From Halobaculum sp. MBLA0147 (lineage in GTDB: Archaea > Halobacteriota > Halobacteria > Halobacteriales > Haloferacaceae), in contig NZ_JBGKAD010000004.1 of NCBI RefSeq assembly GCF_041361345.1, forward strand, positions 62,001 to 126,000: a stretch of 64,000 nucleotides of DNA. The letters are read 5' to 3'. The notes under the pieces were generated by a model. The model was given only the letters and a program-made list of their open reading frames with translations. It searched no databases and had not been told where the DNA came from. Positions 11,199-37,585 of the stretch are shown in pieces (position 1 is the stretch's first letter; every line of letters starts with the position of its first letter). A program made the translations under genes and the position numbers.

Positions 11199-11672
11199 AT
11201 GTCTGAGTACTCGCCTCCGCCGTACTTCAAAGAAACCGATATCATCCCAGGTATCGGCCAAGAAGACCTCGTCGTCGCCTCGTTCCGCCATCGGCGTGAC
11301 TACGGCTTCATCATCGTCCGTAAGCACAAGGCCGCCCACGGGGGGTCGTTCTTCACTGTCGAAATCTGGACTGCACCATCGAAATCAGCGTTTGCGGAGT
11401 TCGAGTGTGCCCTCTCGTACGCCGCAGATCAGCCAGAGGTATCGATGATCCCATCAGTGGAAGCCGGCATCCGGGAAGCCGCCGAGGTCATCACCGTTGA
11501 CGAACGGACCGTTGAGTTTCCACACGACTCGGTCGTCCCGGACCTGCACACCGATGCCGAGTCTCCTCAGCCAGACACGTCTCTTTCACCTACCGAAGAC
11601 GATTCTGCTCCCGACACTCAGTCACAGCCAAATCCCGAAACAACCACGCAATCAACGTTGTCCGCCTTCTGA
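11199..11672 (+). CDS. Hypothetical protein ending in a PIP-box-like motif
   Basis: 157 residues. The first 105 form a compact alpha/beta domain with SFRHRRDYGFIIVRKHKAAHGGSF-type strands. The rest is a disordered acidic/proline tail that ends exactly in QSTLSAF (151-157), which fits the PCNA-interacting Q-x-x-L-x-x-F pattern. The layout of folded domain, flexible tail and terminal PIP box is typical of PCNA clients. A GTTTGTAC-CAG box lies 50 nt upstream. The protein is convergent with the gene at 11680, with only 7 nt between stops. The folded domain is not recognised. Confidence 0.65.
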   Translation: MSEYSPPPYFKETDIIPGIGQEDLVVASFRHRRDYGFIIVRKHKAAHGGSFFTVEIWTAPSKSAFAEFECALSYAADQPEVSMIPSVEAGIREAAEVITVDERTVEFPHDSVVPDLHTDAESPQPDTSLSPTEDDSAPDTQSQPNPETTTQSTLSAF

Positions 11673-11679
11673 TCACCCC

Positions 11680-12372
11680 TCAGTACGGGCAGACGTTCCG
11701 GAGTTGCTCCGTGAGCGGGCCCTCCTCAACCCGTCGCCCGAGCTGTCGGAGCCGACTACTCGGGAGCTCCTTAAATCGAAACACCATCGTCCCGGAAACG
11801 CACTCCTCCACGGTGAATGACTGGTTCCGGATCATCCCGGCCTTGCTCCCGTCTTCCGGGACATCGAGCAGCGTCATCGTTCGATCGAAGATATCGCGAA
11901 CGAGCCCGTCGTAGACGCTGACAACCTCTTCATCAGGCCGCCCGCTCTCCTCACGGATCATGTGTGTATCCTGGTCAGCCGTGTAGGCGTGGAGCGACAT
12001 CACGGCATCCGGGTGTGACGATGTTAGGTGATCGTCACACTCGTGACCAACCGGGACAGCCACTTCGCAGATCCCAGTCTCAAGATGCTCAACTTCCAGC
12101 TCAAGCATGTAGGACCCGAGCTGCCCCGGGTACCCACGGATGCCGATCGTCTCGACGACACCTGGTGTCCGTCGGGCCTCGAACACGTGCGACGCGCGGC
12201 ATTCACCAACATTGTCATCTGCAGTGACCGCACGAATCAACAACTCGTCGAACGCATCACGGTGCCCCGGCCCAAAGACGCGGTCAGCTGGACGCAACTC
12301 TGTCGGCTCCGGGAGATCTGTCTCAAGGTCGTGATCGGGGAGGGACTCAGACGTAGCCATTGATATCCTCAT
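11680..12372 (-). CDS. Hypothetical protein
   Basis: 230 residues from the ATG at 12372, chosen because a TTAAG-type TATA element (GTTAAG on the minus strand, 12394-12399) lies about 25 nt upstream; an ATG at 12360 is the alternative. The sequence is mixed alpha/beta and acidic, with scattered single cysteines (GECRAS, GICEVA, VEECVS, NVCPY), no membrane segment and no clear catalytic motif. It is transcribed toward the PIP-box protein at 11199 and away from the primase-polymerase. Family not recognised. Confidence 0.6.
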   Translation of the reverse strand: MRISMATSESLPDHDLETDLPEPTELRPADRVFGPGHRDAFDELLIRAVTADDNVGECRASHVFEARRTPGVVETIGIRGYPGQLGSYMLELEVEHLETGICEVAVPVGHECDDHLTSSHPDAVMSLHAYTADQDTHMIREESGRPDEEVVSVYDGLVRDIFDRTMTLLDVPEDGSKAGMIRNQSFTVEECVSGTMVFRFKELPSSRLRQLGRRVEEGPLTEQLRNVCPY

Positions 12373-12393
12373 CCGACAGTACAGTCGCGTCCC

Positions 12394-12399
12394 TCTTAA
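12394..12399 (-). promoter_or_regulatory. TATA-like box for the gene starting at 12372
   Basis: GTTAAG on the minus strand centred about 25 nt upstream of the ATG at 12372, the usual haloarchaeal spacing for a leaderless gene. Confidence 0.4.
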
Positions 12400-12602
12400 C
12401 GGTGCGGGAGAGGTCGCCCGTTGAGACTCACTCACCGATCAGGTGTCCCGGTGCCGCAGGCGCGTGGTTCGGCCACCGCACCACCAGATCGATCAGTGGC
12501 TTTTTGAAGCACCCCGTCTTCGTTTCTGGTGCTGCCTTAGTGACTGGCAGCAGCGGATCATCGGTCCACTTCCAATGTCATCTCACCGCGTGCAGGCCGG
12601 TC

Positions 12603-12641
12603 ATGGGTGTCACACACCCATACTCACCTGCACTTGTGAGT
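12603..12641. promoter_or_regulatory. Two adjacent inverted repeats upstream of the primase-polymerase
   Basis: ATGGGTGT / ACACCCAT (8-bp arms, 3-nt loop, 12603-12621) is directly followed by ACTCAC / GTGAGT (6-bp arms, 8-nt loop, 12622-12641). They end 7 nt before a strong TATA box. They could be an operator pair or part of a replication origin. The rest of the 315-nt gap (12373-12602) shows no gene. Confidence 0.5.
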
Positions 12642-12648
12642 GCGAGTG

Positions 12649-12657
12649 TTTATATAA
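12649..12657 (+). promoter_or_regulatory. TATA box of the primase-polymerase gene
   Basis: TTTATATAA, centred about 35 nt before the ATG at 12688. It is a standard TATA box, unlike the GTTTGTAC-CAG boxes in front of many neighbours. Confidence 0.65.
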
Positions 12658-12687
12658 CCAGCCGGGGCTGAAGCACTTCTCAGAACT

Positions 12688-13749
12688 ATGCCGCGAACAG
12701 ACACGATTCCCTCCGAACTCACAGACTTCGACCAGTGGGTCGCATGGTACGAGGAAGTTGAATGGACGAAGGGTGGCGAGACGAAGCACCGCCAGAAGGT
12801 CCCTGCTCAGCCTGATGGAAGCTTCGCCTCTGTCAGTGATCCTGAGTCCCACAGCACCTACGACGGCATCCTCACCGCACTCAACACTGACTCAGACCTG
12901 AGTGGACTCGGATTCGTCTTCACTGATGATGATCCGTTCACCGGTGTCGACCTCGACAAGTGCCGTGATCCCGAAACTGGCGAGATCGACGAGTGGGCCC
13001 TCGCAGTGATCAACGATCTCCGCTCGTACACAGAAGTGAGTCCGAGTGGGACCGGCCTCCACGTGTTGATCAAAGGCGAACTCCCCGACACGTGGGACAA
13101 CCGGAATGACGGCCTCGAGATCTACTCGCGTGACCGGTACTTCACCGTGACTGGAGAGACTGTCAATCTCGATGGTGAGCCGGTCGACTTCGCAGCGCCA
13201 GTCGCCCAGCGGCAGCAAGCACTCGAGGCGGTCCACGAGGAACACATCGGCACTACAACCTCGGACAGTCCAACCGTGGACTCGGCAGGGTCGGCAAACC
13301 TCCGGATCGACACCTCCGGTGTCAGTGGCCAACTGACCCTTCAGGAAACTGCTGACCGGCTCCTCCCGAAGGTGACGCTCAGCGATAATCCTTCCACCGA
13401 GATGACTCCAGCCGACAAGAGCATTCGAAACCAGGCGTTGAACGCCTCCAACGGTGACGTGTTCCGAGCGCTCTGGGCGGGTGATTGGCGAAGTGTGCCA
13501 GGAAAGTCGTATCCCTCGCAGAGCGAAGCCGACATCGCGCTCGCGAACATCCTCGCCTTCTATACAGGTGGTGACGCAGCACAGATGGACCGGCTCTTCC
13601 GGAATTCCGGGTTGATGCGTCGCAAGTGGGACGAAGTCCACTACCGGAACGGTTGTACCTACGGCGAGATGACGATCCGACACGCTATCGCCTACGTTGA
13701 TGAGGAGTACACGGGGACAGACGCATCCCAAGCCGAGGTGCTGGCATAG
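12688..13749 (+). CDS. Primase-polymerase (PrimPol-like, NrS-1 polymerase family)
   Basis: 353 residues. The N-terminal 160 match an archaeo-eukaryotic primase/PrimPol fold: GFVFTDDDPFTGVDLDKC with D88 and D90 as the metal-binding pair, then SPSGTGLHVLIKG with the conserved Ser/Gly/His (H125), then LEIYSRDRYFTVTG. This order is typical of the phage NrS-1-type polymerases found on haloarchaeal plasmids. The C-terminal region (about 255-345: YPSQSEADIALANILAFYTGGD, LFRNSGLMRRKW) is the helix-bundle domain found in the same family. The protein probably primes or initiates replication of this element. No helicase domain is fused. The start is supported by the TATA box at 12649, and the stop overlaps the next GTG start by one base. 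Confidence 0.85.
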   Translation: MPRTDTIPSELTDFDQWVAWYEEVEWTKGGETKHRQKVPAQPDGSFASVSDPESHSTYDGILTALNTDSDLSGLGFVFTDDDPFTGVDLDKCRDPETGEIDEWALAVINDLRSYTEVSPSGTGLHVLIKGELPDTWDNRNDGLEIYSRDRYFTVTGETVNLDGEPVDFAAPVAQRQQALEAVHEEHIGTTTSDSPTVDSAGSANLRIDTSGVSGQLTLQETADRLLPKVTLSDNPSTEMTPADKSIRNQALNASNGDVFRALWAGDWRSVPGKSYPSQSEADIALANILAFYTGGDAAQMDRLFRNSGLMRRKWDEVHYRNGCTYGEMTIRHAIAYVDEEYTGTDASQAEVLA

Positions 13750-14312
13750 TGACGGTCGCGACACCCCCAGGGCTCGTTCCAGAGAGTAGTACCATCCACG
13801 GCTGTCTTGTCGGCTGCGGTGACGCAAAAGCTGACGAAGCACGGCCAGCAGCTGAACTATACACGTCTCAGTATTTCCAAAAGAAGCGCGCGTTTGCCGA
13901 GAAGCTTGTTCCGCAGTATTGGATTCTCTCGGCGGAACACGGCGTCGTTGATCCAGCCACCGAGATTGAGCCGTACGACACTCGCGTCGGTGGCAACGAC
14001 TTTGACCGGCAGGCATTTCTCAGCACAGTCGCAGACGACATGGCGTCCCTCACAGACGACGACAGAGACCCAACCCGACTTATAGTACTCACTGGAGAGG
14101 ACTACCTGACTGCTCTGATAGATGCGCTCGCCCGGGCCGACACCGGACCTGGGGAAATCAAACTGGTAACACCGTTCAGACACGGGAGCTTCGAAGGCAT
14201 CGGGGACCAGATGAGCTACCTGAACGCCGCTCTAGAGGCAGGAGATCAGACGCTCCCTGTGGCAGACGCTCTTGATCACTCACCAGACCACCACCAAGTC
14301 ACGCTTGGGTAG
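13749..14312 (+). CDS. DUF6884 family protein
   Basis: 187 residues from a GTG that shares a base with the previous stop (TAGTG), so it is coupled to the primase-polymerase. It shows the DUF6884 signature: LVGCGDAKADEARPAAELYTS near the N-terminus, then YWILSAEHGVVDPATEIEPYDTRV (about 57-80), and a later TPFRHGSFEGIGDQMSYLNAAL. From memory, DUF6884 proteins have been linked to the TGT/DpdA superfamily and occur in 7-deazaguanine DNA-modification settings; I treat that link as suggestive. The C-terminal part contains VLTGEDYL and a Pro/His-rich end. Its place directly behind the replication primase, with three TGT-like genes 5-9 kb away, is what makes it interesting. Confidence 0.75.
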   Translation: MTVATPPGLVPESSTIHGCLVGCGDAKADEARPAAELYTSQYFQKKRAFAEKLVPQYWILSAEHGVVDPATEIEPYDTRVGGNDFDRQAFLSTVADDMASLTDDDRDPTRLIVLTGEDYLTALIDALARADTGPGEIKLVTPFRHGSFEGIGDQMSYLNAALEAGDQTLPVADALDHSPDHHQVTLG

Positions 14313-14345
14313 TCAGTCTGCCCGGGGGGCGGCGCCTTCCCGACA

Positions 14346-18893: not shown

Positions 18894-20204
18894 ATGTCGA
18901 AACGACAATCAAAGCTCAACTCCTATACGACAGACCCCACAGACCCGACGCCAGAACAGAACAGTGACGATACGGAGAATAACCCATCACCGGACAGGGA
19001 CCCGTATCGGAATGTCACGAGAGACGACCAGGTCTGTACCTACTTCGGGGACGATGGAACATCACCTGGCACCGCGCTCAACGCACTCCTCGACGATTCA
19101 GACCCGGTTATCGTCGACGTGCCACTCCCAACCCCGACCGGATTCACAGACATCACCATCCGGAAAGTTGCCGGACAGGGCGGATTCGGTGTACGTGACA
19201 TCGAGCAAGATCCCGAGGCCCTCCACCCACTCCTCTCGCGCCTCAAGGGCATCCCGGTGATCATCGAAGGCGGTGGGCAGCTCAGTCGAATGGACGACGA
19301 CCTGCGTGTCGGTGTCCTCTCTGATGCCTCCATCACCGACAACCGTCTACAGATCAGTTTCACACAAGTCAAACACAGTAGCAGCACACCCGGCCTAGAC
19401 AGCATCGAAGACAAAACCCGCAAGCTCGGCTCCTACAAGTTGTTCATCCCGACAACACTGTGGGACGCCGCGTGTCTCAGCCGTGCGATCCGCGATCTTC
19501 AATCAGAGCGCATCCCCACCCTGACAGCAAACGACGTCCGGGCGATGCGCGGTGGCGACAAGTACGAAGCAACTCTATCCGACCTATCGCCAGGTGACAG
19601 GCTGTCCACAGACGCATACGAAACCGACCTCATCGTCATCTCAGACACGACGCAGACCGACATCAGAGTCACAACCGCACGAGGAGAGCGGGTTCACCGG
19701 GTAACAACTGTGACCGTGACAAACCCTCGCGGTGGCTACTACCAGTTTGGCTGGCGCCGTCCAGGGCCGTACACCCATCCAACGTGCTACCTCTCGCGGT
19801 CACAAAATACGAAGCCAGCTCCGAACTCCCCATTCACCGCAGACCACACCTTCGCAGACTTCGACCCCGTTGCTGTCACGACTGGTGATGAGTATCCCAC
19901 CTACGTCCCAGTAGATACCGACCGTGAAGAGTCGCCGCTCCCATCGAAGTTCCGGACACAGAGCCTCACCGATCTGGACGGTATTGGCGAAAACACCATG
20001 CGGACAATCGTTCGAGAAGCGCCACGCTACGAGGACTACTCCCTCTCGTCGGCTCACGAACTGGCATACCTGCTCTTCGGCGACACGGACATCGACACAG
20101 AGCCGATTGAAGATGCGATCGATCGGACCAGTCGAAACGTGATGCTCCGCAGGAAGCTTCGCGACCTGTACCACGAGGATATCAAACCGAACGAAGCAGC
20201 GTGA
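18894..20204 (+). CDS. Hypothetical protein with N-terminal PIP box and C-terminal HhH-like domain
   Basis: 436 residues. The very N-terminus reads MSKRQSKLNSY; Q5-x-x-L8-x-x-Y11 fits a PCNA-interacting motif. Residues 60-240 form a mixed domain with a glycine-rich turn (VAGQGGFGVRD) and VIIEGGGQLSRMDDDLRVGVLSD. A beta-rich segment follows, then a C-terminal LTDLDGIGENTMRTIVREA stretch (about 357-376) that matches a helix-hairpin-helix DNA-binding turn. A terminal PCNA tether plus an HhH suggests a protein that works on DNA at the replication fork. No nuclease motif was recognised. The start is set by the box 26 nt upstream. Confidence 0.65.
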   Translation: MSKRQSKLNSYTTDPTDPTPEQNSDDTENNPSPDRDPYRNVTRDDQVCTYFGDDGTSPGTALNALLDDSDPVIVDVPLPTPTGFTDITIRKVAGQGGFGVRDIEQDPEALHPLLSRLKGIPVIIEGGGQLSRMDDDLRVGVLSDASITDNRLQISFTQVKHSSSTPGLDSIEDKTRKLGSYKLFIPTTLWDAACLSRAIRDLQSERIPTLTANDVRAMRGGDKYEATLSDLSPGDRLSTDAYETDLIVISDTTQTDIRVTTARGERVHRVTTVTVTNPRGGYYQFGWRRPGPYTHPTCYLSRSQNTKPAPNSPFTADHTFADFDPVAVTTGDEYPTYVPVDTDREESPLPSKFRTQSLTDLDGIGENTMRTIVREAPRYEDYSLSSAHELAYLLFGDTDIDTEPIEDAIDRTSRNVMLRRKLRDLYHEDIKPNEAA

Positions 20205-20324: not shown

Positions 20325-21815
20325 ATGCAAGCAGACAACGACACGACCGAGACTCCACGCACAGCCTCTCCAGCCACTACCACTGAGTTGGAGCATCTAC
20401 TGAGTGAAGCAGGAGAGATCTTCTTCTCTGGTCTCTCACAGGCGAAGACGACCATTCCAGGCCCGGCGAAGGAACGGATGGCGAGCGACCAGCCGCCAGC
20501 CGATGATGAGATCCGTTCATTCAAAGAGGCTGTCAGCCTCTTGCCACGCGCCGAGAAGTCTGATCTGCGCGCACACAATCCCTACGCGGACGCCGACGCG
20601 CCCCAGGAGCCGTCTCGGAAGGTCGCTGAGGAGATGGCGGGTCTCGACGTCGACGCACTCGAGGACGTCCTCGGGACGACCGTTGCACAGGCCGCCGCCG
20701 GAGAAGACGCTGCCGCGTGGCCAGAAGTCGACGGCCACGCCGACGTTGTCGACCCCCGTCGCCAACTTCTCGCCGCCCTCGGAGCAGACGTCAAGTTCCG
20801 CTGGCAGATCGCCTCCGATAGCTACGAACCCGGCGACATGGAGCGCTTCTATCTCCGGAAGCTCCGCGCGCTCCAGGGTCGTGGCTTCAACGATGCGTGG
20901 GGACGGATCGACTACCATGACTGGGGAGGGGCAGTTTCGATGACGACTGTCTACCCGTCGCTGCAGTTCTCTATCACGATCGGAGAGCAAGACATCAATC
21001 CCTCAGCCGTCGCCCCCGCCGCGACGCCACAGGAGAAGGGGGCATTCAGTCGCGCTCTGTCCATCGCAGATGTCGGCGACGACGATGAAATCAGTGTCCT
21101 GTACGGCGACGTGATGACGCATGACTATCGCGGAGCACAGACGATCAACGCCCAGCCGATCATTTACGTGCCTGCCACGGGGACTACCATCCCCCTGCCA
21201 CAGCCATCCTTCTCGCGTCGTCACCAGGGGAACTTCATGGACAGAGACCACGAGCGGTCGAACGACCGGAAGTCGCCACTGGAGTGGCACGAGTCCATCT
21301 TGGATCGACTGGAGAGCCTCACCGGCACTATCAACGGCGAGATCGTCCGCGCTCGTCTCTTGACCTTGGACTTCACTGAACTCCCCTTCCAGATCCGAGA
21401 CTTCTACCGGTACGCGGGCATTTCCTCGGAGAAGGTGATCGAACGGGCGACAACCACAGCTCGTGGCACTGCCGAGCCAGAATCCAAGCCATCCCTGTGG
21501 ACCCTGCAGGTGAGCCTGAAGGTCGCGCTCCTCAAGGAGTTCTCCGGCAACCGGAGTGGGCAGGCGTTCAAGCGATATCAACAGGTCGCCGGGAAGATGC
21601 TCCGAAACCCGGCCTCGCAGTTCAAGCTTATCGCTGAAGAGCACAACTACGCGACGGAGGACACCGCCGCCCCTGATCAGCAGACCGATGCAGGAGTCGA
21701 TACGACGGACCTCAACGACCTCACCGAGGTCGACATCGATCTCACGACCGCAGGCGCCGTCGAGCAGAACGTCCAGGAGGAACTCGCGGCATTCGGCAAC
21801 GGTGACTCTGCCTGA
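20325..21815 (+). CDS. Hypothetical protein with C-terminal PIP-box-like motif
   Basis: 496 residues. It has helical N-terminal regions (about 20-160), then a beta-rich core (FRWQIASDSYEP, WGGAVSMTTVYPSLQFSITIG, EISVLYGDVMTHDYRGAQ; about 170-300), a helical section (ESILDRLESLTG, SLKVALLKEFSGNRSGQAFKRYQQVAGKML) and a disordered acidic tail. The tail ends in QEELAAF (484-490) plus six residues, a fit to the PCNA-interacting pattern. It sits directly before the CobS-like ATPase gene, 88 nt away, each with its own box. I do not recognise the family; it may be a client or partner of the AAA+/VWA pair. Confidence 0.65.
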   Translation: MQADNDTTETPRTASPATTTELEHLLSEAGEIFFSGLSQAKTTIPGPAKERMASDQPPADDEIRSFKEAVSLLPRAEKSDLRAHNPYADADAPQEPSRKVAEEMAGLDVDALEDVLGTTVAQAAAGEDAAAWPEVDGHADVVDPRRQLLAALGADVKFRWQIASDSYEPGDMERFYLRKLRALQGRGFNDAWGRIDYHDWGGAVSMTTVYPSLQFSITIGEQDINPSAVAPAATPQEKGAFSRALSIADVGDDDEISVLYGDVMTHDYRGAQTINAQPIIYVPATGTTIPLPQPSFSRRHQGNFMDRDHERSNDRKSPLEWHESILDRLESLTGTINGEIVRARLLTLDFTELPFQIRDFYRYAGISSEKVIERATTTARGTAEPESKPSLWTLQVSLKVALLKEFSGNRSGQAFKRYQQVAGKMLRNPASQFKLIAEEHNYATEDTAAPDQQTDAGVDTTDLNDLTEVDIDLTTAGAVEQNVQEELAAFGNGDSA

Positions 21816-21902: not shown

Positions 21903-23675
21903 ATGTCGAGTACAACCGCCAGCAGCGGCATTGAGCCGACTCTGAGCCGTGTGATCGAACACTTCGCCAAGATCCGTCTGCAGCAGGCTGAAGGAGCCTT
22001 GCCACTTGGTGAAGTGACGGCCGATGCAGTGGCCGTGATTGAACGCTCGCCGGAAAACATCCGCAAGCTCATCGAGAAGGACAATCGCATCACCGTGCGA
22101 GACGGCAACATCATCTCCGTTTCCGTGGTGGGCCAGACGCCTCAAATCGTCCGTGAGTACCTCGGCGAGAGTGTCAACACCCTCGACACCGAGCAGCTGA
22201 TCCCCGACGATGCACAGCTTCCGGCCGGCACGCTCGACAGTTTCAACTCGTACGAGGAGATCGCACAGGAGTCGGATGCCGTCCTATTCGAGACGATTCT
22301 CAGCCGCGTCGACGACCTCGCCAGCGATCCCTCCTACGACTTCGACTTCCTCACCGAAGCAGAACAGGAAGACCTTGAAGAGGCAGACGAATTCGACTCT
22401 GCACTTCGCGTCGTCCATACCGACCACGCGGACATCGCCGACCTGTCGCCGACGCTGACCACGTCGAAAGCAAAGAAACTCCAGAACAGTATCGACACGG
22501 ACGCACAGTTCGACATGTCCCACGTAGCCGACCTGAAGCAAGCCGCCGAGAAACGACGGCCGTCAGTCCCGGATGTTGTTGCCGACACAATCGAACCACT
22601 CGACAACGCAGACGACCCGCACAGAAGGGCCGCCGCCACAGTCACCGACATCGAGGAAGAGAGCAGTTCAGTCGGCCTTCCGAAGGCCTCCACAGACACC
22701 TCGGTGCGTGCGGACATGCCCGAGGCCGTGTACACCACCGTCGGCACAGACCGGACCGAAGGGGAACGTCGAACGAACCTCACTGTACTCGAGGACAAAG
22801 ACTACGACCGCATTCCGGCGCCAGCGCCGAAGGCCAGTCGCGGCCAGCCGGAGATTCCCGTTGACGACGACGGCGACCCGGTTCCACCGGCGGTCCCGAC
22901 CGATCCGGAACTCGGTGTGCCGGTGGACGAGTTCGTCGCGAACAAACTCGGCCGCGACACGCCTATCCGCCTAGTCGGCCCACACGGAGCGGGGAAGAAC
23001 TACCTGCTGAAGTGGATCGCCTTCCAGACGAATCGTGGCTATCGAAGTATCGACGTCGACAAAGCCACGGTGCCGGACGACCTGTTCGGCCCGCGATCAC
23101 TCGACGAAGACGGTGTCGTTGTCTCTCGCGACGGCCCAGTGAAGCGAGGCCTCCTGAACGGCGACCTCGTCGTCATCAACGAGTTCCCCGTGATGCAGAG
23201 TGGTGCTGCAATCGCGCTCCACCGGCTCCTGAACGAAGGCCAACTGCTGATCAAGTCGCACGGTGACCTGGTGGAGCCGCACAGAGAAGCACGAATCGCC
23301 ATCACGATGAACCCGCCGACGCGGGAGTACCAGGGGTCCGAAGAGATGAACGCAGCAACGCGAGACCGGTTCGCAACCGCGCACGTCCCTTACCTGCAGG
23401 ACGTACAGCGCGAGGCAGACGTGCTCGAACGACAGTTGCCAGTCGGCGCGCGGCGCGTGGACCGCGACACGATCGAGAACATCGTCGAGTTCGCCCACCG
23501 AACGCGGACGAACGACCGAATGCCAACGCTCTCAACGCGGTCGCTGACGGTTCTCCTCGAAAACGTGATCGACGGGGTGACACCGCAGGCCGCGGTGAAG
23601 AACCAGTTGCGGGCTGTCGCTGGTCCCCGCCAGAACCCCGAGGAGCACTTCGAGGCCGTCGAGAGTACGGTCTAG
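21903..23675 (+). CDS. CobS/MoxR-like AAA+ ATPase with altered Walker motifs
   Basis: 590 residues. The first 330 are a helical, acidic extension. A dynein/MoxR-type AAA+ domain follows: Walker A GPHGAGKN at 359-366, Walker B LVVINE with N426-E427, a sensor segment IAITMNPPTREYQGSEEMNAATRDRFA with the arginine finger region, then the C-terminal lid. Two changes stand out: the Walker A Thr/Ser after the lysine is Asn, and the Walker B Asp is Asn. MoxR/CobS ATPases work with VWA partners, and a CobT-like VWA gene lies 2.7 kb downstream. In aerobic cobaltochelatase this pair drives metal insertion; virus and plasmid copies have unknown substrates. ATP hydrolysis may be weak, so it could act mainly by nucleotide binding. 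Confidence 0.8.
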   Translation: MSSTTASSGIEPTLSRVIEHFAKIRLQQAEGALPLGEVTADAVAVIERSPENIRKLIEKDNRITVRDGNIISVSVVGQTPQIVREYLGESVNTLDTEQLIPDDAQLPAGTLDSFNSYEEIAQESDAVLFETILSRVDDLASDPSYDFDFLTEAEQEDLEEADEFDSALRVVHTDHADIADLSPTLTTSKAKKLQNSIDTDAQFDMSHVADLKQAAEKRRPSVPDVVADTIEPLDNADDPHRRAAATVTDIEEESSSVGLPKASTDTSVRADMPEAVYTTVGTDRTEGERRTNLTVLEDKDYDRIPAPAPKASRGQPEIPVDDDGDPVPPAVPTDPELGVPVDEFVANKLGRDTPIRLVGPHGAGKNYLLKWIAFQTNRGYRSIDVDKATVPDDLFGPRSLDEDGVVVSRDGPVKRGLLNGDLVVINEFPVMQSGAAIALHRLLNEGQLLIKSHGDLVEPHREARIAITMNPPTREYQGSEEMNAATRDRFATAHVPYLQDVQREADVLERQLPVGARRVDRDTIENIVEFAHRTRTNDRMPTLSTRSLTVLLENVIDGVTPQAAVKNQLRAVAGPRQNPEEHFEAVESTV

Positions 23676-26420: not shown

Positions 26421-29060
26421 ATGAGTACCAACCTCCAGCCGTCGCGAGCGACGGAGAAACTCCAGCCGTCCCCGACGGAGCTCCGGTCAGGCAGCGAGCG
26501 TCGCCGCAAGCTGCAGACCTACGTTGAGGGACTGCTCCCGGCCGACGTGAGGGCCAACGTCGACGTTGAACTCCACGAGCAAATCCCGACGGCCGCGGTC
26601 GTCCCAACGAGCGACGACGCCGTCACCCATGCTGAAAACGGGCTCCCAGAGGAGGCCGCCCGCCAACTCGACACGGACACCGACGCCGATTTCAAGATCA
26701 TCATCACCGCTCGTGAGATTCCACTCGAGAATACGCCTTTCGACGATCAGGCCACCGTCGACCGTGCGTTCCAGTTCGGCGCTGCACTCCACGAAGTCCT
26801 CCACATCCTCAAAACCGCGAGCGGCCGCCAAGCCGAACTCGTCGACGATCAGGTAGCCGACCAGCACCAACCATACGTCAACCGCCTGCTAAACCTGATC
26901 GAGGACAGCGCCATCGAATACGAAGCCCGCGAGATCGACGACTTCACCGAAACCGCCGGCAATCGCCTTACGCTTACACAGTCGATTCTCCGGGAGTCTG
27001 TCGACACTGTCAATCCAGATGATCCGATCACGCTCGGGTTCCGTCGCGCCATCGACGAGGCACTCCTCGATATGCTCCTGTTCAATAGGGGGAAATTCCG
27101 GGCACTGATGAACCCGAGCGACGACCGCGTTCAGTTCCAGAACGCGGACGTTCGAACGGCGTTTCTCGCCATCTCGAAGGAACTCGCCAGCTTCGCACGA
27201 GAGGTCCGTACCTACCGGTCCGTCGGGGACGGCGTCCACGACCACGACAAGACGGCGTCGATTGACCGCGCACAGGCCGTGATCGACTTCTTCCAAGGCA
27301 CCATCAAGCCACGGCTCGAAGACCTCAGCGACACCACTGACTCAGAAAGTCACCAACAACAGACACAATCGCCACAGTCACACCAGGACGCGCACGAGTC
27401 GGTGACACAGCAGGCAACCGACCGGCCGACCGTGATCGAGCCGGACACATCCGACACCGCCGAGACTGACGAAAGCGACGCCGATGATCAGGAGAGTGCT
27501 GATTCGGAAGACGTGGCGACCGACACGTCTGCGGCAGAGAGCGGTCGCGACGGCGACGCGAGCGCGTCCATCGCGTCCGACCAGTCCGACCAGTCTGCGG
27601 CAGGTAGCGACGGTGCAGCACAGGCACGCGACACCACAGAAGGCGACGGTAGCGACCCCAGTGGCGACCGGTCGAGTGAACAGGAGGCCGACCGCGGCGA
27701 CAGCAAGAGCGAAACGGCACAGACACCTGCTGATAGCGGCACAGACCCGACCGACGCGTCACCCGACCAGGACTCCCAAAGTGAGTCTGGAAGCCAGCAG
27801 GCGTCGCTCACGGCGTTCAACGCTGACGCCAGTGACTCCGATGCCGACACCCGCGACAACCAGGAGAGTGCTGACAGTGCGTCCACCAGTGAAGCAGGCA
27901 GTGAGTCGGACAGCCAGTCTGACACACCTGATCACCAAGATGGCGACGCCGACAGCGATGAGTCTGGGTCGGCGTCCGCGGATCAGGCAAGAGAGTCGTC
28001 ACCACAGCCCGACACAGAGGCGACAAGTGAAGCCCCCGACGCAGGTGACGACGACCACACGTCCGACGAGAAAGCGCCCAACGAGTCGAGCGCAGCGGAC
28101 TCCGAGTCGGCTCAAGACACGACTCCAGCACACGACGCGACGCCGAGCGACGTGGACCTCTCACACGACGCCGACGCTGTCGACCGCGAACAGGATCGAG
28201 CGGCACCGGCACTGAGCCGCGTGGAAGACGAGATCAGCCGGCTCGACGCTGAACTGGACCGCGACGAACACGCCGACCTCTCGAACGGGCAAGGCGGCTA
28301 CGGCGACATTGAGGAGATTTCAGTCCTCCCGGAGCCACCGCGTACCACTGGCACAGTCCCCTCCTGGGACGAGATCCAGCAAGAGAAGGATCGCGTCGCC
28401 GACCGGCTCGCCAACGCGCTCCGACTCTCACAACCAGACGACACTCGTCGCGGCGTATCGACAGGAACACTCGACACGACGGCAGTCCACAAAGTCGGCA
28501 CCGGACAAACCGGCATCTTCGCGAGAGATATGCCGGGCGAGGACAAAGAGTACGTCCTCACGCTGGTTCTTGACCGCAGTGGCTCAATGGGGGGCAGAAC
28601 CAACAGCCTGATCGGCACGGCAGTGCGCGCTGTCGGGCTCTTCGCAGCCGCCGCAGAGGAACTCGCGATGGACGTCGCGATCATCGACTTCTACGACGAG
28701 GAGGCCCGGCTCATCAAGCCTGTCGCGACCGATCTCGAGTACGTTCACGACCGCCTTCTCACCGACGAGACAAGTGGTGGAACGCCGCTCTCGGACGCGC
28801 TCGAACTCGCAGTCGCGCACACACGAAGCCAGCAGAAAGAACCACTCGTCGTCTCCGTGACCGACGGAGCGCCAGCAAGCAACAGCGACTGCATCGATGT
28901 CATCAAATCCGCACGGCTCCCGGTCGCCGGCATCCGCATTGGTGCCGAAGCAGCCGATGACCGCCTTGCAGAGGCGTTCGTCGAACACACGTGCCTTCCA
29001 TCGGGGGACAACCTCGTCGACACGCTCGACCGATTTGCGGCCAGTCTGACCGGCCTCTGA
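26421..29060 (+). CDS. CobT-like VWA protein with long acidic linker
   Basis: 879 residues. The N-terminal domain (about 10-300) resembles CobT-type proteins and holds an HEVLH motif (H124, E125, H128) near helices suited to metal or structural roles. A very acidic Ser/Asp/Gln-rich linker spans about 305-620 and contains QASLTAF (460-466), a PIP-box-like motif. The C-terminal von Willebrand A domain has a full MIDAS: D718-R-S720-G-S722, T788 and D815. VWA proteins of this kind pair with MoxR/CobS ATPases, here the gene at 21903. In cobaltochelatase they form the chaperone part; homologues on viruses and plasmids have unknown targets. The PIP motif suggests recruitment to the replisome, which is inference. 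Confidence 0.8.
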   Translation: MSTNLQPSRATEKLQPSPTELRSGSERRRKLQTYVEGLLPADVRANVDVELHEQIPTAAVVPTSDDAVTHAENGLPEEAARQLDTDTDADFKIIITAREIPLENTPFDDQATVDRAFQFGAALHEVLHILKTASGRQAELVDDQVADQHQPYVNRLLNLIEDSAIEYEAREIDDFTETAGNRLTLTQSILRESVDTVNPDDPITLGFRRAIDEALLDMLLFNRGKFRALMNPSDDRVQFQNADVRTAFLAISKELASFAREVRTYRSVGDGVHDHDKTASIDRAQAVIDFFQGTIKPRLEDLSDTTDSESHQQQTQSPQSHQDAHESVTQQATDRPTVIEPDTSDTAETDESDADDQESADSEDVATDTSAAESGRDGDASASIASDQSDQSAAGSDGAAQARDTTEGDGSDPSGDRSSEQEADRGDSKSETAQTPADSGTDPTDASPDQDSQSESGSQQASLTAFNADASDSDADTRDNQESADSASTSEAGSESDSQSDTPDHQDGDADSDESGSASADQARESSPQPDTEATSEAPDAGDDDHTSDEKAPNESSAADSESAQDTTPAHDATPSDVDLSHDADAVDREQDRAAPALSRVEDEISRLDAELDRDEHADLSNGQGGYGDIEEISVLPEPPRTTGTVPSWDEIQQEKDRVADRLANALRLSQPDDTRRGVSTGTLDTTAVHKVGTGQTGIFARDMPGEDKEYVLTLVLDRSGSMGGRTNSLIGTAVRAVGLFAAAAEELAMDVAIIDFYDEEARLIKPVATDLEYVHDRLLTDETSGGTPLSDALELAVAHTRSQQKEPLVVSVTDGAPASNSDCIDVIKSARLPVAGIRIGAEAADDRLAEAFVEHTCLPSGDNLVDTLDRFAASLTGL

Positions 29061-29062: not shown

Positions 29063-29542
29063 ATGCTCCGCGAAGCCTCTCTCGCTGCCGACACCGTGGA
29101 ACAGGCCGACGCCGACTGGTGGACCGACCTAGACGCACCAATCGCAGTGGTCAGTACTCCAGATCGCCTCGCAGCAGTGCGGCCATTCCCAGACTCGGTC
29201 GCACCAGAGATCACAACCTGGTGTATCAACGAGTACCTCAACCAGTCAAGCACTGAGCCAGTCGCGACGACGGTCCTCTTGCTCGAGAAACGCGGGGTCT
29301 TCCAGCGCCACCAACCGCTGTATCGGGCGACAGAGGCGACACGTGACGGCGGGACCGTGATCCACTCTGCGCCCAACTTCACCCCTGAATCGAAAGCTGC
29401 CACACCCGTCGATCAGGTGGTCGCAGGCTACGAGTCCGAGGACCGCTACGTCCGCACACGATACCGAGTGGCGACTCTAGACACCTCTGCACAGGAAGGC
29501 TCTACCACGCTTGCTGAGTTTTCTGCTGCCACCGACGGCTGA
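29063..29542 (+). CDS. Hypothetical protein
   Basis: 159 residues, starting 2 nt after the CobT-like stop, so it is very probably co-translated. It looks like a compact alpha/beta domain: VVSTPDRLAAVRPFPDSVAPEITTWCINEYL, then a beta strand region (TTVLLLEKRGVFQRHQPLYRAT). The C-terminal STTLAEFSAATDG contains S-x-x-L-x-x-F, a PIP-like motif lacking the glutamine. Position suggests a role tied to the VWA/AAA+ pair. Family not recognised. Confidence 0.6.
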   Translation: MLREASLAADTVEQADADWWTDLDAPIAVVSTPDRLAAVRPFPDSVAPEITTWCINEYLNQSSTEPVATTVLLLEKRGVFQRHQPLYRATEATRDGGTVIHSAPNFTPESKAATPVDQVVAGYESEDRYVRTRYRVATLDTSAQEGSTTLAEFSAATDG

Positions 29543-31066: not shown

Positions 31067-32224
31067 ATGTCCGCAAACGCCAACTCCGACAGCACCGACG
31101 CCGAGACCAACAATGCCGACACCGACGCCGACAGCGGTGGCCCGACGATGACGATCCACGGTGAGAGTAGTGACGACGCTGAGAACCAGACCGAAGCCAA
31201 CGAAGCCGCTTCCGATGGTGCCGATGCCGAATCCAGCGCCAATGCGGAGGCCAACGAAGCAGTCGACGAAGCGGCAGATGCGGACGCAGACGCCGCAGAT
31301 GTCGATGCCGACACGAGTGCCAGCTCCGATGTCGAGGCCAGTGGCGCCGACAGTGATGCCGGTACCGAGGACGTCGCCGACGCAGCAGACGCCGAGGAAG
31401 GAAGTGAGGCCGCGGAGAACGCCGGTGGCGACACTGAGGATGACGAGGAGGATGGGATCGACACGAACGCCGTCCCGTCCGACGACGTGCATGTCGTGGC
31501 CGACGCATCGCTTCTTCGCGACTTCCTGGGTGTCGCGTCGGCAATCGACGACGAAACACGCCTCCTCGTCCGAGAGGACGGCATCCACATCAAACTCGTC
31601 GATCCCGCGAGCGTCGCAATGGCAGACGCCACACTCCGGCGGTCCAGCCTTGAGAACTTCTCGCCGTCCGTCGGAACGATCGCAGTCGACCTCGATCGAC
31701 TCCAGAGCTACCTGAAGACTGCAGACAGCAACGACCTCGTCGATCTTCACTACGACAGCGACACGCGGAAGCTGGAGATCAACGCCGGTGGGATGCACTT
31801 CTCGATGGGGACCATCCAGCCGGAGTCGCTTCAAGAGATTCCTGAGATCCCGGAGCTGGAGTTGCCGACAACCGCTACCGTGGACAAGAGCGTGTTCAGC
31901 CGTGGACTGAGCGCCGCAGACCTCACCAGCGACTACGTCTCGCTGGCCGGCGACCCTGACGAGAACACGTTCGTGGTCTCCGCGTCTGGCGACACCGACG
32001 ACATGCGGTTCGAAATCGACGCAGATCGCGCCGAAGCGCTGGACCTCGACGAGACGGAAGCGCTGTTCGCGCTGGAGTACCTCAAGGAAGTCGAGAGTGG
32101 CCTCCCGAGCGGCGACCTGACCATTCGGACGGGCGACGACTTCCCGACCAAGATCTCCGTGGACACGGACGCCATCAACGCTCTCTACATGGTAGCACCG
32201 CGAATCGATCCGGACGACGCCTGA
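31067..32224 (+). CDS. pcn: PCNA sliding clamp with acidic N-terminal extension
   Basis: 385 residues from ATG 31067; an in-frame ATG at 30995, 19 nt after a box, would add 24 basic residues. From about residue 141 the sequence is a complete PCNA: VVADASLLRDFLGVASAIDDETRLLVREDGIHIKLVDPASVAMADATL opens domain 1, IAVDLDRLQSYLKTA and LEINAGGMHFSMGTI follow, the interdomain linker carries the IPEIPELELP stretch, and MVAPRIDPDDA ends it. Residues 1-138 are an Asp/Ala/Glu repeat with almost no basic residues, absent from ordinary PCNA. PCNA rings tether polymerases, nucleases and methylases to DNA. Many proteins of this window carry matching PIP motifs. The extension may steer partner choice or keep the clamp from host complexes; this is inference. 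Confidence 0.88.
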   Translation: MSANANSDSTDAETNNADTDADSGGPTMTIHGESSDDAENQTEANEAASDGADAESSANAEANEAVDEAADADADAADVDADTSASSDVEASGADSDAGTEDVADAADAEEGSEAAENAGGDTEDDEEDGIDTNAVPSDDVHVVADASLLRDFLGVASAIDDETRLLVREDGIHIKLVDPASVAMADATLRRSSLENFSPSVGTIAVDLDRLQSYLKTADSNDLVDLHYDSDTRKLEINAGGMHFSMGTIQPESLQEIPEIPELELPTTATVDKSVFSRGLSAADLTSDYVSLAGDPDENTFVVSASGDTDDMRFEIDADRAEALDLDETEALFALEYLKEVESGLPSGDLTIRTGDDFPTKISVDTDAINALYMVAPRIDPDDA

Positions 32225-32604: not shown

Positions 32605-33219
32605 ATGGCTTCCCAGCCTCACCACACGTTCAAGACGCTGCCAAAGGCGTTGAAAACCGAAGATCCAGACGTAGTGCATTCACAACTGATCGCCGCGCTC
32701 GCCGATCCGTGGGAAGTCGGCGAAATCGAATTTCGAGACAACTCACATATCGAACGCGATCGGCGCCCACTCGCGAACTTTCCTGCGCCGCTGGTAGCAA
32801 CGACCGTCACCAACCCCGACACAGATGCATTCATTAGAGTTGACCCGTACGACCACCGGCCAGCGGGCTGGGAAGACCCGCTGTTTCTCGGCCAACGCGT
32901 TCTCGCAGCGCAGCCGGACACAGACACTGAACCACAGTATCTGACAGCGCCAAACCCAACCCACCCAGACATCAATCAGTGCGACGTCGTCCCCACCGAA
33001 AGCCATGCAGAGCTCATAGCACGCACTGCACGCTCAACGGTCCACACACTCCCTGACGAAGTGAAACAGAACGACGCAGAACAACCGATTTACAACCGGC
33101 CACCGTACGTGATCCCAGAGCCGATCAACGCACTTCGGACTGCGGTCGCTGCAGCGAACGAACATGCCAAAGATGAGTCAATCCAATCCGAACAAGTAAG
33201 CTTCAAGAGGTTCTGCTGA
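32605..33219 (+). CDS. Hypothetical protein ending in a PIP-box-like motif
   Basis: 204 residues from ATG 32605 (in-frame ATG 32572 and GTG 32563 are alternatives; none has a clean promoter). The protein is polar with several Pro-rich loops (PTHPDINQCDVVPTESHAELIARTARSTVHTLPDEV) and a helical C-terminal part (PEPINALRTAVAAANEHAKDES). It ends in QVSFKRFC, where Q197-x-x-F200-x-x-F203 fits a PCNA-interacting motif with one extra Cys. It follows the PCNA gene and its small zinc neighbour, which supports a link to the clamp. Family not recognised. Confidence 0.6.
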   Translation: MASQPHHTFKTLPKALKTEDPDVVHSQLIAALADPWEVGEIEFRDNSHIERDRRPLANFPAPLVATTVTNPDTDAFIRVDPYDHRPAGWEDPLFLGQRVLAAQPDTDTEPQYLTAPNPTHPDINQCDVVPTESHAELIARTARSTVHTLPDEVKQNDAEQPIYNRPPYVIPEPINALRTAVAAANEHAKDESIQSEQVSFKRFC

Positions 33220-34430: not shown

Positions 34431-34441
34431 GTTTTTGTGAG

Positions 34442-35281
34442 ATGTCAGAAGCGACGCCAAACCAAGCGCAGGCGCCACTAACCAGCTACAAAGGCAACCG
34501 AACGCCTACAACCGGCAACACGTTCGAGTCGCCGGACGACGACGAACTCGAACACGTTATCGCCCCCGACTGGATGTACCCGTACGACGTCAACGACATC
34601 GAGGGGATTCACGAACTCAGACGCCGGATTCGCGACGCCGAAGAAGCGCTGAATGGGCTCAAAGCCTGGACCGAACTGATCAAAGACCACATCACGTTCG
34701 GCAATTCTGGAAAGGTCGGCAAGACCGTCGGTATTTACAATCTGAATACTGCACACGACTGCGTCAATCGAGGCACCGACTACTGCCAGGTGGGACCCGA
34801 TGAGTGCTACGCCGTTCGTGCCGAACACCGTCAGGTGCATCCGATCCACTACCGCCGACGCCAAGAGATCATATGGGACCACATCGACGCAAGCACGTTC
34901 GCCACTGCGTTCAAACGGATCGTCCGGCGGAAGCGAAACCGGGTTGATGCCCTACGAATCCCCCAGAGCGGCGACTTTCGCCACCAGCACGACCTACTGA
35001 AAGCCGAAGAAATCGCGCGGATTCTGCAACCGCAGTACAAAGTGTACACCTACACCGCGTCGACGTGGCTGGACCTGAGCGAAGCCGATGCACTCACGGT
35101 CAACGCTTCAAACGAACATGCAGCCGGCGCCGATCGACGATTCATCGTCGTCGAGGACACCGAAGACATCCCCCAGAACGGCATTCAGTGTCCGAAAGAC
35201 CTGACCGACGACATCTGGTGTGGGCAGTGTCAACTCTGTCTCGACTCCGATGCAGGTGATATCTACACAAAGAAGATCTAG
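34442..35281 (+). CDS. gp88-like cysteine-rich protein with N-terminal PIP box, copy 1
   Basis: 279 residues. The core matches phage gp88 proteins: VGIYNLNTAHDC ... DYCQVGPDECYA, RRRQEIIWDHID, ALRIPQSGDFRHQHDLLKAEEIARIL and YKVYTYTAST. Three cysteines in the first cluster (DC, YC, ECYA) and four in the C-terminal region (QCP ... WCGQCQLC) suggest one or two Fe-S clusters. The layout recalls radical SAM enzymes with an extra C-terminal cluster, although the classic CxxxCxxC is absent. The N-terminus carries Q10-A-P-L13-T-S-Y16, a PIP-box-like motif. It is about half identical to the gene at 36039. The reaction is unknown; in phages, gp88 genes lie among replication and DNA-modification genes. 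Confidence 0.7.
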   Translation: MSEATPNQAQAPLTSYKGNRTPTTGNTFESPDDDELEHVIAPDWMYPYDVNDIEGIHELRRRIRDAEEALNGLKAWTELIKDHITFGNSGKVGKTVGIYNLNTAHDCVNRGTDYCQVGPDECYAVRAEHRQVHPIHYRRRQEIIWDHIDASTFATAFKRIVRRKRNRVDALRIPQSGDFRHQHDLLKAEEIARILQPQYKVYTYTASTWLDLSEADALTVNASNEHAAGADRRFIVVEDTEDIPQNGIQCPKDLTDDIWCGQCQLCLDSDAGDIYTKKI

Positions 35282-35295
35282 ACCACGTCAAAGTG

Positions 35296-35308
35296 TTTGT
35301 TTTCCCAG
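35296..35308 (+). promoter_or_regulatory. GTTTGTAC-CAG box variant (TTTGTTT-TCC-CAG)
   Basis: Copy 17. It starts 75 nt before the ATG at 35371; an ATG at 35312 opens only a 14-codon ORF. Confidence 0.5.
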
Positions 35309-35370
35309 AGAATGGTTGGGGTGGCCGCACCCCTGGATAGGTATCGAGCAAGTTAATCGACATTACAAAT

Positions 35371-35775
35371 ATGACCACTGAACACATTGCCACGGCAGGC
35401 AACACGCCAGAAGTATCGAATCCAGATGAGCTAGAGACGGCCCTCGACGAGTTCACACTGCTCGTCGGCCCACATGCCTCAGACACCAACATCCAAGTGA
35501 AGCGTGGGAAACTGCACGTGGCCGGAAATGGGTATCTTCGACCAGTCCATCACCCGACTACCGAGGCTGAGCACAGAGACCCGTACGCAGATCCAGACTG
35601 GAAGGAGTTCACCGAGAAGGTGACACCCCACATCAATACGCCTCTCAAGATCAGGACTGTGGCACACACCAAATTCCGCTGGAAACCAGGAGCCGAGGTG
35701 CTCACCTTGTCGCCAGACGGGACGTTGACGCGGCTTAAGCTGGGAGAAACCGAAGAACAGGTCTTGGTTGAGTAG
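35371..35775 (+). CDS. Hypothetical protein
   Basis: 134 residues between the two gp88-like genes. It is alpha/beta without cysteines: LETALDEFTLLVGPHASDTNIQVKRGKLHVAGNGYLRPVHHP, then FTEKVTPHINTPLKIRTVAHTKFRWKPGAEVLTLSP. The beta-rich pattern with an N-terminal helix could be a small barrel or clamp-binding domain, but no family is recognised. A variant box lies 75 nt upstream. The 263 nt from 35776 to 36038 hold only the intergenic motif and the next box. Confidence 0.55.
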   Translation: MTTEHIATAGNTPEVSNPDELETALDEFTLLVGPHASDTNIQVKRGKLHVAGNGYLRPVHHPTTEAEHRDPYADPDWKEFTEKVTPHINTPLKIRTVAHTKFRWKPGAEVLTLSPDGTLTRLKLGETEEQVLVE

Positions 35776-35976
35776 AGCCCAGATCCACTCTCCCCCATCA
35801 CGTCAGAGAGAGTCGACTATCAAAAAGGACGAATTAGACCTAGACACCCGACAAGTAGGCCAATCCATTGGGAACTTCGAGACGATAGGTATCACTGAAG
35901 AATACATACTGGTATCACAAGACCACTACCGTCTATCAGAGGAAGAAGTAGGGTTCGTGCTTGTGTGCACGGTTCC

Positions 35977-35994
35977 ATGCACGAAGATCCCACA
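35977..35994 (+). repeat. CGAAGA-N-CCCAC intergenic motif, copy 5
   Basis: CACGAAGATCCCACAGAG, about 33 nt upstream of the box at 36010. Confidence 0.4.
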
Positions 35995-36009
35995 GAGTGT
36001 GTAGAGGGG

Positions 36010-36022
36010 TTTGTACTCACAG
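36010..36022 (+). promoter_or_regulatory. GTTTGTAC-CAG box (TTTGTAC-TCA-CAG)
   Basis: Copy 18. It starts 29 nt before the ATG at 36039. Confidence 0.75.
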
Positions 36023-36038
36023 TTGAGGGTGAGTAGTC

Positions 36039-36887
36039 ATGCCTGCAGAGCCTAGCTCCCAGACATCGTTTACCCAATTCTCTCAAGACGGGACACTGCC
36101 CTCGTCTGGACACGAATACGATCCGCCTGATGACAGTGAACTGTCGAAGACGATCGCTCCAGACTGGCTGTATCCGTGGCCTGTGGAGGAAGTCAATGGC
36201 ATCCACGAACTTCGTGCTCGCATCCGCGACGCAGAAGCAGCAGTAAATCCCCTCACTGAGTGGACGGAAATCCTCAATGACCACCTGAATTTCGGCAACA
36301 ACGGCAAGCTCTCGGACCAAATCGGTGTCTTCAACTTCAACTCGGCGACAGACTGTCTGAATCTCGGGACCGACCGCTGCCAAGTCTCAGAAGGGGACTG
36401 TTACGCGAAGAACAACGAGCGGTTTCCTAACGCGCTATCGTACCGTCGCCGACAAGAAATCGTGTGGGATCATCTTGACCCGGCCACGTTCGCTGACGCC
36501 TTCGACCGTGTAGCACGCCGAAAGCGGACAGACGTATCCATCTTGCGGCTCTCGCAGTCCGGCGACTTCCGGAACAGACACGATGTGCTGAAGGCGGAAG
36601 CGATCGCCAACATCCTCGCTCCACAGTACGACGTGTACACCTACACAGCTTCCAGCTGGCTCCCATTCGACGAGACAGACACGCTAACTGTGAACGCTTC
36701 CAATCCGAACATCGACAGCGCAGACCGTCGGTTCGTCGTCGTCGACGACGTCGAATCCATCCCGGAGGATGGAATTCGATGCCCCGAAGACCTATCTGAC
36801 GGTGAAGTTGAGTGCGGCCAATGCAGGCTCTGTATCGACAAAGACGCTGGTAACGTGTACATTCAGAACCTCTACGCGGACGACTGA
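36039..36887 (+). CDS. gp88-like cysteine-rich protein with N-terminal PIP box, copy 2
   Basis: 282 residues, paralogue of the gene at 34442, with the same blocks: FNFNSATDC ... DRCQVSEGDCYA, YRRRQEIVWDHLD, ILRLSQSGDFRNRHDVLKAEAIANIL, YDVYTYTASS, and the C-terminal CGQCRLC. The cysteine spacing is kept in both copies, so a metal or Fe-S cluster is likely functional. Its N-terminus has Q8-T-S-F11-T-Q-F14, again a PIP-box-like motif although the surrounding N-terminal sequence differs from copy 1; this argues that PCNA binding is selected. The two copies may form a heteromer or act on different substrates. Confidence 0.7.
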   Translation: MPAEPSSQTSFTQFSQDGTLPSSGHEYDPPDDSELSKTIAPDWLYPWPVEEVNGIHELRARIRDAEAAVNPLTEWTEILNDHLNFGNNGKLSDQIGVFNFNSATDCLNLGTDRCQVSEGDCYAKNNERFPNALSYRRRQEIVWDHLDPATFADAFDRVARRKRTDVSILRLSQSGDFRNRHDVLKAEAIANILAPQYDVYTYTASSWLPFDETDTLTVNASNPNIDSADRRFVVVDDVESIPEDGIRCPEDLSDGEVECGQCRLCIDKDAGNVYIQNLYADD

Positions 36888-36906
36888 ACGACAGTCTCTT
36901 TGATCG

Positions 36907-36922
36907 AAGAGCCCACGATGGA
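36907..36922 (+). repeat. CGAAGA-N-CCCAC intergenic motif, copy 6
   Basis: TCGAAGAGCCCACGATGG, about 20 nt after the stop of the second gp88-like gene, with no GTTTGTAC-CAG box after it. Confidence 0.35.
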
Positions 36923-37126
36923 GGAGTGCGGTGCCAATACGACCGACGAGGAGGGCGGTGTCCACCAGTTCCCCCTGCTGGAGACGAGCCCTCTCGCGGC
37001 GTACCTCAGCTGAGTGATGTCGGGTTGCCGGCACCAGAGGAATTCATCGCCCACGGGATAAAGCCACCGCCCTCACCTCCCTGTCGTTTAAGTGGGCCAC
37101 ACCAGTAGTTGCTGGTGGAGATAGAT

Positions 37127-37585
37127 ATGGTCCCTCCAAGCTCTTCGACACAGCGATCGCCGGCTGCAGAGTCTGTCTCGGTTCCTGCACAGGCGGATTT
37201 CGACCAGTTCTTTCGAGACGACCTCCTCGCACAGTGGGAGATTCCTACCGCGCGGGCGCTGGCAGCACGGGTCGCCGAGGAACTCGCCACGCGGCTCTCG
37301 GACCCCACGCGGCTGTCAGTCGAGATCATCCAGGCAGCGCCTGTTGCCTTCGAACAGGCCTTCCTTGAGCTGGCCTCGGTACCGATGCTCCCTGAAGTGG
37401 CTGCAGTTGCTCGCGAACAACTCCGGGACCGGGCCGTGACCGTCCTCAGTGGGCACGAACTCGGCACCGGCTCCGAGTTCCTGTTTTCCGTCACAGAAGT
37501 GCTCACGCAGGAGTTCCTCAACGAACTCCAGCGTGCCTTCGACGCCCGGTTCTCACCAGTCGTCGGTCCCCAGGACAGCCAGTGA
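37127..37585 (+). CDS. Helical hypothetical protein with canonical PIP box
   Basis: 152 residues. Near the N-terminus Q22-A-D-F25-D-Q-F28-F29 is the best PCNA-interacting motif in the window, with both aromatic residues. The rest is helical with an ARALAARVAEELATRL segment and repeated LxxE/LxxA heptads, so it may be a helical bundle. The ATG at 37127 follows a GGTGGAG Shine-Dalgarno-like sequence (37114-37120); a TTTAAG TATA-like element lies about 40 nt upstream. It lacks the shared GTTTGTAC-CAG box. Family not recognised. Confidence 0.65.
   Translation: MVPPSSSTQRSPAAESVSVPAQADFDQFFRDDLLAQWEIPTARALAARVAEELATRLSDPTRLSVEIIQAAPVAFEQAFLELASVPMLPEVAAVAREQLRDRAVTVLSGHELGTGSEFLFSVTEVLTQEFLNELQRAFDARFSPVVGPQDSQ

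Follow-up and report, generated by a model that had tools for sequence, protein, structure and literature searches.

Genes of the locus and sequences compared

The window analysed here, 64,000 nucleotides in length, comprises bases 62001-126000 of contig C4 (226.5 kb) of the six-contig genome of the haloarchaeon Halobaculum sp. MBLA0147. It encodes a PCNA sliding clamp together with a series of proteins that carry candidate PCNA-interacting protein (PIP) boxes, among them putative DNA-modifying enzymes and a protein with a VWA domain that is encoded with an AAA ATPase (Table 1). Besides this PCNA, C4 encodes its own Orc1/Cdc6 and ParA and, from C4 base 1 onward, an RPA homologue and an adjoining DNA-binding protein. 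C4 is regarded as a replicon or plasmid that may have viral ancestry; modules related to its own sit on plasmids typed as non-mobilizable.

Genes were called separately for each replicon. Background proteins were drawn from about 1.7 Mb of the genome, the contigs including C1 (the chromosome), C3 and C5, and plasmid C5, with GC and glutamine contents similar to those of C4, was used as the control. Terminal counts were made with the strict motif Q..[LIMF]..[FYW].

Occurrence and enrichment of the motif

A reading of the sequence made without database searches (the sequence-only reading) had listed nine strict motifs, and each was recovered at its position in a plausible gene. The statement that they lie at termini or in disordered segments holds for eight; the motif of the 37127 gene is not terminal and is the weakest of the nine. 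The weaker endings proposed for the genes at 4432, 23692, 29063 and 49909 are likewise present, and two others, in the genes at 7188 and 24488, had been missed.

The terminal motif was found in 14 of the 199 C4 proteins, against 2.16 after shuffling of the termini alone (maximum 8 in 500 shuffles); the reversed motif was found at the termini of four. Within the region of the sequence-only reading the count was 7 of 43 proteins (0.51 expected). Plasmid C5 gave 3 of 177 (1.95 expected) and chromosome C1 gave 14 of 723, where the best-scoring matches are largely known clamp clients. An equal rate of the motif in background proteins, which the sequence-only reading had named as a refutation, was thus not seen.

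A motif matrix was trained solely on the VWA-linker motifs of homologues, the weights for tyrosine and tryptophan at position 7 and for methionine at position 4 being entered manually on the basis of the published consensus. Seventeen of 199 C4 proteins were positive with this matrix, against 20 of 1047 on C1, C3 and C5 (odds ratio 4.8, p = 1.2e-5). Its matches on the chromosome included PolB (QTGLGDWG), the RFC large subunit (RFC-L; QSGLTDFV), Nre and uracil-DNA glycosylase (UDG), and on C3 a photolyase; this recovery of known clamp clients serves as a positive control for the motif. PIP boxes usually lie at protein ends (PMC2737543), and the function of NreA requires its PIP (PMC4929162).

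Table 1. Features of the window (positions in the window; aa, amino acids; weak, weak PIP)
Position	Strand	Feature	Evidence
4432..5361	+	Second TGT/DpdA-like paralogue; C-terminus AEQLSSF (weak)	Pfam TGT 18.3 bits, below 26.3
7188..8114	+	TGT/DpdA-like; C-terminus RTTLASYA (weak)	PF01702 20.4 bits, below cut-off 26.3
8162..9154	+	Conserved family without PIP, VWA-adjacent in relatives	Homologues in 15/46 module loci
11199..11672	+	Orphan, disordered tail; QSTLSAF = last 7 aa	Motif and matrix
13749..14312	+	DUF6884 (DpdC-associated); ends QVTLG	94.6 bits, cut-off 30
18894..20204	+	Orphan; QSKLNSY at aa 5	Motif and matrix
20325..21815	+	Module protein, phrog_13083; QEELAAF 6 aa from C-terminal end	Homologues on 27 plasmids, 36 genome loci
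21903..23675	+	MoxR/CobS-like AAA ATPase, VWA module partner	AAA_5 60.4 bits (cut-off 22); phrog_249 E 8.9e-31; synteny
23692..24495	+	D12-class adenine DNA methyltransferase-like; C-terminus QQSLSSHA (weak)	PF02086 21.2 bits, cut-off 22
24488..25348	+	D12-class adenine DNA methyltransferase; C-terminus SPSLAHWA (weak)	PF02086 88.8 bits
25378..26331	+	Orphan, disordered tail; QTGLASF = last 7 aa	Motif and matrix
26421..29060	+	VWA protein: N-terminal HExxH domain, ~300-aa acidic linker, C-terminal VWA	VWA_2 36.4 bits
27798..27818	+	Codons of linker PIP QASLTAF (aa 460-466 of 879)	Alignment of VWA homologues
29063..29542	+	Protein with C-terminal STTLAEF	G001 homologue keeps HVTLGDF at aligned C-terminus
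31067..32224	+	Replicon-encoded PCNA sliding clamp, 385 aa; acidic N-terminal extension before clamp domain	phmmer to H. volcanii PCNA
32605..33219	+	Near-orphan; ends QVSFKRFC (QVSFKRF 1 aa from end)	Motif and matrix
34442..35281	+	GP88 family; QAPLTSY at aa 10	PF17338 31 bits, cut-off 24.4
36039..36887	+	GP88/DUF7227 paralogue; QTSFTQF at aa 8	DUF7227 20.3 bits, below cut-off
37127..37585	+	QADFDQFF at aa 22, non-terminal	Motif only
49909..50982	+	Radical SAM protein; C-terminus STSLTEF (weak)	PF04055 39.9 bits; matrix score 6.8

DNA-modifying enzymes

The two TGT/DpdA-like paralogues are 25% identical (E 8e-25). The homologues known from other haloarchaea terminate in QSGIQSY, QAGFATF or QKSISDY (the last twice), and in the alignment D56, D85, G142-G143 and D195 are invariant, presumably as the equivalents of TGT catalytic residues. 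The DUF6884 family has been tied to DpdC in 7-deazaguanine islands (PMC11888242). Homologues of the window member end in QGSLTDY (G001), QSTLESFE (G143, adjoining a TGT-like gene) and QADLGGF (G044, with a TGT-like gene in the same region), and a marginal DUF6884 match on plasmid C6 of this genome ends in QIGFDDF. At C6:65307-68164 this weak match adjoins a 720-amino-acid protein ending in QQGLGDY.

Methyltransferases of the Salinibaculum KK48 plasmid end in QETLTEF, QQHLTNFA and QTSLSHF, the last belonging to the homologue of the 24488 enzyme. The endings QTGFDEFA, QVGFDEFA and QAELSKFG occur in methyltransferases on plasmids with PCNA, and an N4/N6 methylase encoded on C4 outside the window ends in QLDLTQF. 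The sequence KSRFASW at the N-terminus of Dam homologues was rejected as a PIP, since it lies within the conserved FPYPGGKSRFASW segment. The KK48 plasmid (NZ_CP129994, 336-352 kb) has a cluster in which a TGT-like gene accompanies five or more DNA methyltransferases, several members having a C-terminal PIP.

The AAA-VWA module

Homologues of the VWA protein align in the N-domain and the VWA domain, and the linker between them is unalignable save for one island, Q-x-[STAR]-[LIF]-x-x-F. This linker PIP was present in 26 of 26 homologues (0.07 expected by shuffling), a few of these sequences being mutually close; with a further homologue from genome G001 (QTTLGAF) the total is 27 of 27 examined. 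The metal-ion-dependent adhesion site (MIDAS) sequence LDRSGSM or LDRSxSM was found in all nine aligned VWA sequences, and H124, E125 and H128 of the HExxH are invariant among 18. The N-domain was predicted with a pLDDT of 83.5. Foldseek gave no significant match for it, and VIA-align gave weak zincin rows only (Z 4-5.5) among unrelated helical proteins; with the HExxH invariant but the zincin matches weak, protease activity is hypothetical.

The gene order 20325-AAA-VWA is the same across the module loci (about 40 haloarchaeal replicons). The 46 loci were assembled from 36 genome loci found by a scan with the 20325 family and 11 plasmid regions, a few being the same plasmid taken twice; a PCNA gene lies inside the examined slice in 27. 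The module proteins are mostly 25-55% identical to the window copies, so the module is old. For the 20325 protein Foldseek returned no significant match.

The VWA protein is weakly similar to viral CobT, and the homologous pair of the haloviruses HVTV-1 and HCTV-16 is annotated CobS/CobT (or AAA/VWA); in both viruses the HExxH ... NxxED.AIE N-domain and the acidic linker recur. Viral CobST has been read as boosting cobalamin (PMC8651126). The plasmid family scores 40 bits with the NCBI cobaltochelatase model TIGR02442, whose cut-off is 779. The clamp tag, invariant in the linker, argues against a cobalamin chelatase role and points to the fork.

In HVTV-1 (L182, L183) and HCTV-16 (L184) a C-terminal [VIL]Lx[FYW]-COOH is common to PolB, the RFC large subunit, N6A and C5 methyltransferases and unknown proteins; L182 has 5 such endings against 0.25 expected. 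This ending may be a modified clamp tag peculiar to these two viruses.

PCNA gene and remaining carriers

The PCNA gene placed at 31067 by the sequence-only reading is borne out: residues 174-413 of its protein (P0001) match Haloferax volcanii PCNA (3hi8) with a phmmer E of 6.5e-43, the similarity covering the full two domains. Pfam PCNA_N by itself gave 17 bits, under its cut-off of 20.3; the full-length match to solved PCNAs is nevertheless clear. The pocket-forming inter-domain loop (IPEIPELELP) and the C-terminus (MVAPRID) align with known PCNA. The acidic N-terminal extension is roughly 145 amino acids long, and PCNA relatives in L080, L081 and L086 are also longer N-terminally. A second PCNA-like gene, on the chromosome (316-amino-acid frame), adjoins a 196-amino-acid protein ending in QARVTDF (C1:1671209-1671451, C1:1671736-1672326).

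Both GP88 paralogues carry an N-terminal PIP-like motif, as had been proposed. A Haloplanus ruber homologue of both (L094/L146) has QSRIGTF at residue 4, the rest of its N-terminus being different; no GP88 homologues were found in viral contigs. For the 11199 protein a search of 381 genomes gave only marginal, interrupted matches, and for the 18894 and 25378 proteins 242 genomes gave none. The 32605 protein had marginal matches only in the genome search, and viral contigs gave no useful homologues of these four.

Other genes of the window include a TFIIB-like factor (359-1309) whose ending, QTTIQVYA, scores as a possible PIP, an NrS-1 primase-polymerase helicase-binding domain (12688-13749), a Rad50/SMC-like ATPase with LmuB (Lamassu-type) similarity in PADLOC (15076-16893), and a rhodopsin gene adjoining a HAMP/methyl-accepting chemotaxis protein (MCP) transducer (58849-61911). 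PADLOC matches were limited to methylase and SMC-like proteins.

Interpretation

Enrichment, conservation in homologues and the positive controls together make it well supported that the motifs of the carriers are genuine PIP boxes, that is, sites predicted to bind. The best explanation, to which a probability of about 0.7 is given, is that a sliding clamp, probably the PCNA encoded with them, is the docking site of the PIP-bearing proteins of C4, the DNA-modifying enzymes and the AAA/VWA module standing out among them. Docking would occur through terminal PIPs and, for the VWA protein, through the PIP of its disordered linker. One class would consist of the TGT/DpdA-like base exchangers, the DUF6884 family and the adenine or N4/N6 methyltransferases, which, once docked, would act on the daughter strands directly behind the fork. 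The other would be the conserved module made up of PCNA, the 20325 family, the MoxR/CobS-like AAA ATPase and the CobT-like HExxH VWA protein; the ATPase/VWA pair would be brought to the fork, there to remodel or cleave DNA-bound proteins. The arrangement suggests that the plasmid links both DNA modification and protein remodelling to its replication fork.

Several observations weigh against this explanation. Both TGT-like proteins of the window score under the Pfam cut-off, and the glutamine or the aromatic residue is missing from several motifs of the window. The 20325 motif is kept only in C4, G001 (QETLGGF) and KK48 (QKKLLNF), most homologues ending in a glutamine-rich helix. Some DNA-modifying enzymes on these plasmids, including other KK48 methyltransferases, are without the motif, as is the linker of the CobT-like proteins of HVTV-1 and HCTV-16. 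Four carriers (11199, 18894, 25378 and 32605) are orphans, for which enrichment and position are the evidence.

The PIP boxes might be real and yet serve the host chromosomal PCNA, the plasmid PCNA being a regulator, a competitor or a subunit of mixed rings. The motif does resemble those of the host clients PolB and RFC-L, and a plasmid PCNA nearby is not established for all genomes with motif-bearing TGT-like or methylase genes; enrichment on the very replicon that bears PCNA, and the presence of a PCNA gene in 27 of the 46 slices, make this unlikely. Chance look-alikes from glutamine-, serine- and threonine-rich disordered tails are a much poorer account of most of the motifs. Glutamine is indeed more frequent on C4 than on the chromosome (3.7% vs 2.0%), the conservation check is impossible for orphans, and look-alikes occur inside folded regions, as in the Dam homologues. 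Local shuffles, however, yielded 2.2 motifs where 14 were observed, C5 has no excess at similar composition, the VWA linker motif is present in every one of the 26 homologues, and terminal PIPs occur independently in different families. Pure chance is rejected as a general explanation and could hold for 37127 and some of the weak endings. That the termini bind a hub protein other than PCNA is the least probable reading, for although short linear motifs are degenerate, this one is the established PIP consensus, its matrix recovers known clamp clients, and a clamp is encoded on the replicon.

Docking on the clamp does not imply the "clamp-loaded complex of mostly unknown proteins" proposed in the sequence-only reading, which overreaches. 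With one pocket per PCNA subunit (PMC2737543), clients would compete, succeed one another or hand off, and a single multi-protein complex is rejected on this ground. Many carriers are moreover identifiable, namely the TGT/DpdA-like proteins, the DNA methyltransferases, the DUF6884 partner family and the CobT-like VWA protein.

A more tentative proposal, held at slightly less than even odds, concerns the plasmid CobS/CobT-like AAA-VWA pair: rather than being an enzyme of B12 synthesis, it would be a machine that remodels or cleaves proteins at the fork while tethered to the clamp, beside base-modifying enzymes, likewise tethered, that mark the plasmid DNA newly made there. In tailed viruses the CobST pairs may have the same fork role. 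If docking on the clamp is correct, DNA modification in mobile replicons is tied to the replication clamp that they encode, and protective marks could precede restriction cutting of new strands. It would also allow a direct test of the role of the widespread "CobS/CobT" pairs and provide a simple tag for finding further unknown clamp clients in archaea. The open-access literature yielded no report of clamp-tethered modification enzymes or of a clamp-tethered AAA-VWA pair for haloarchaeal plasmids.

Comparison with known systems

The archaeal PCNA clients PolB, RFC-L, Fen1, NreA and NucS share the motif, its terminal position and dependence on the clamp (PMC2737543, PMC4929162). Those proteins belong to core replication and repair, whereas on C4 the predicted clients are an AAA/VWA pair and DNA-modifying enzymes encoded by a plasmid. 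In eukaryotes PCNA recruits the DNA methyltransferase DNMT1 through a PIP box, which resembles the docking predicted for the C4 methyltransferases; C4 differs in that a single archaeal replicon encodes modification enzymes of several unrelated kinds, with tags that are mostly C-terminal.

As in the 7-deazaguanine modification systems of phages and islands (DpdA, DpdC; PMC6884629, PMC11888242), TGT-like and DUF6884 proteins are encoded together on C4. In contrast to those systems, the C4 TGT-like sequences are remote, no preQ0 genes were confirmed on C4, and C-terminal clamp tags are found in the homologues. The DNA-protein crosslink protease SPRTN likewise combines an HExxH domain with a PIP box, whereas the plasmid protein has a CobT-like VWA architecture with an AAA partner, and its protease role is hypothetical.

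An arrangement similar to the plasmid module is that of viral CobS/CobT (PMC8651126) and MoxR/VWA systems, in which an AAA_5 ATPase stands beside a CobT-like VWA protein. HVTV-1 CobT and the plasmid VWA protein both have an N-domain with HExxH ... NxxED.AIE, an acidic linker and a VWA domain. Whereas the viral CobS/CobT examined is without the tag, the plasmid VWA protein has one that is invariant in its linker, and a PCNA gene adjoins the plasmid pair.

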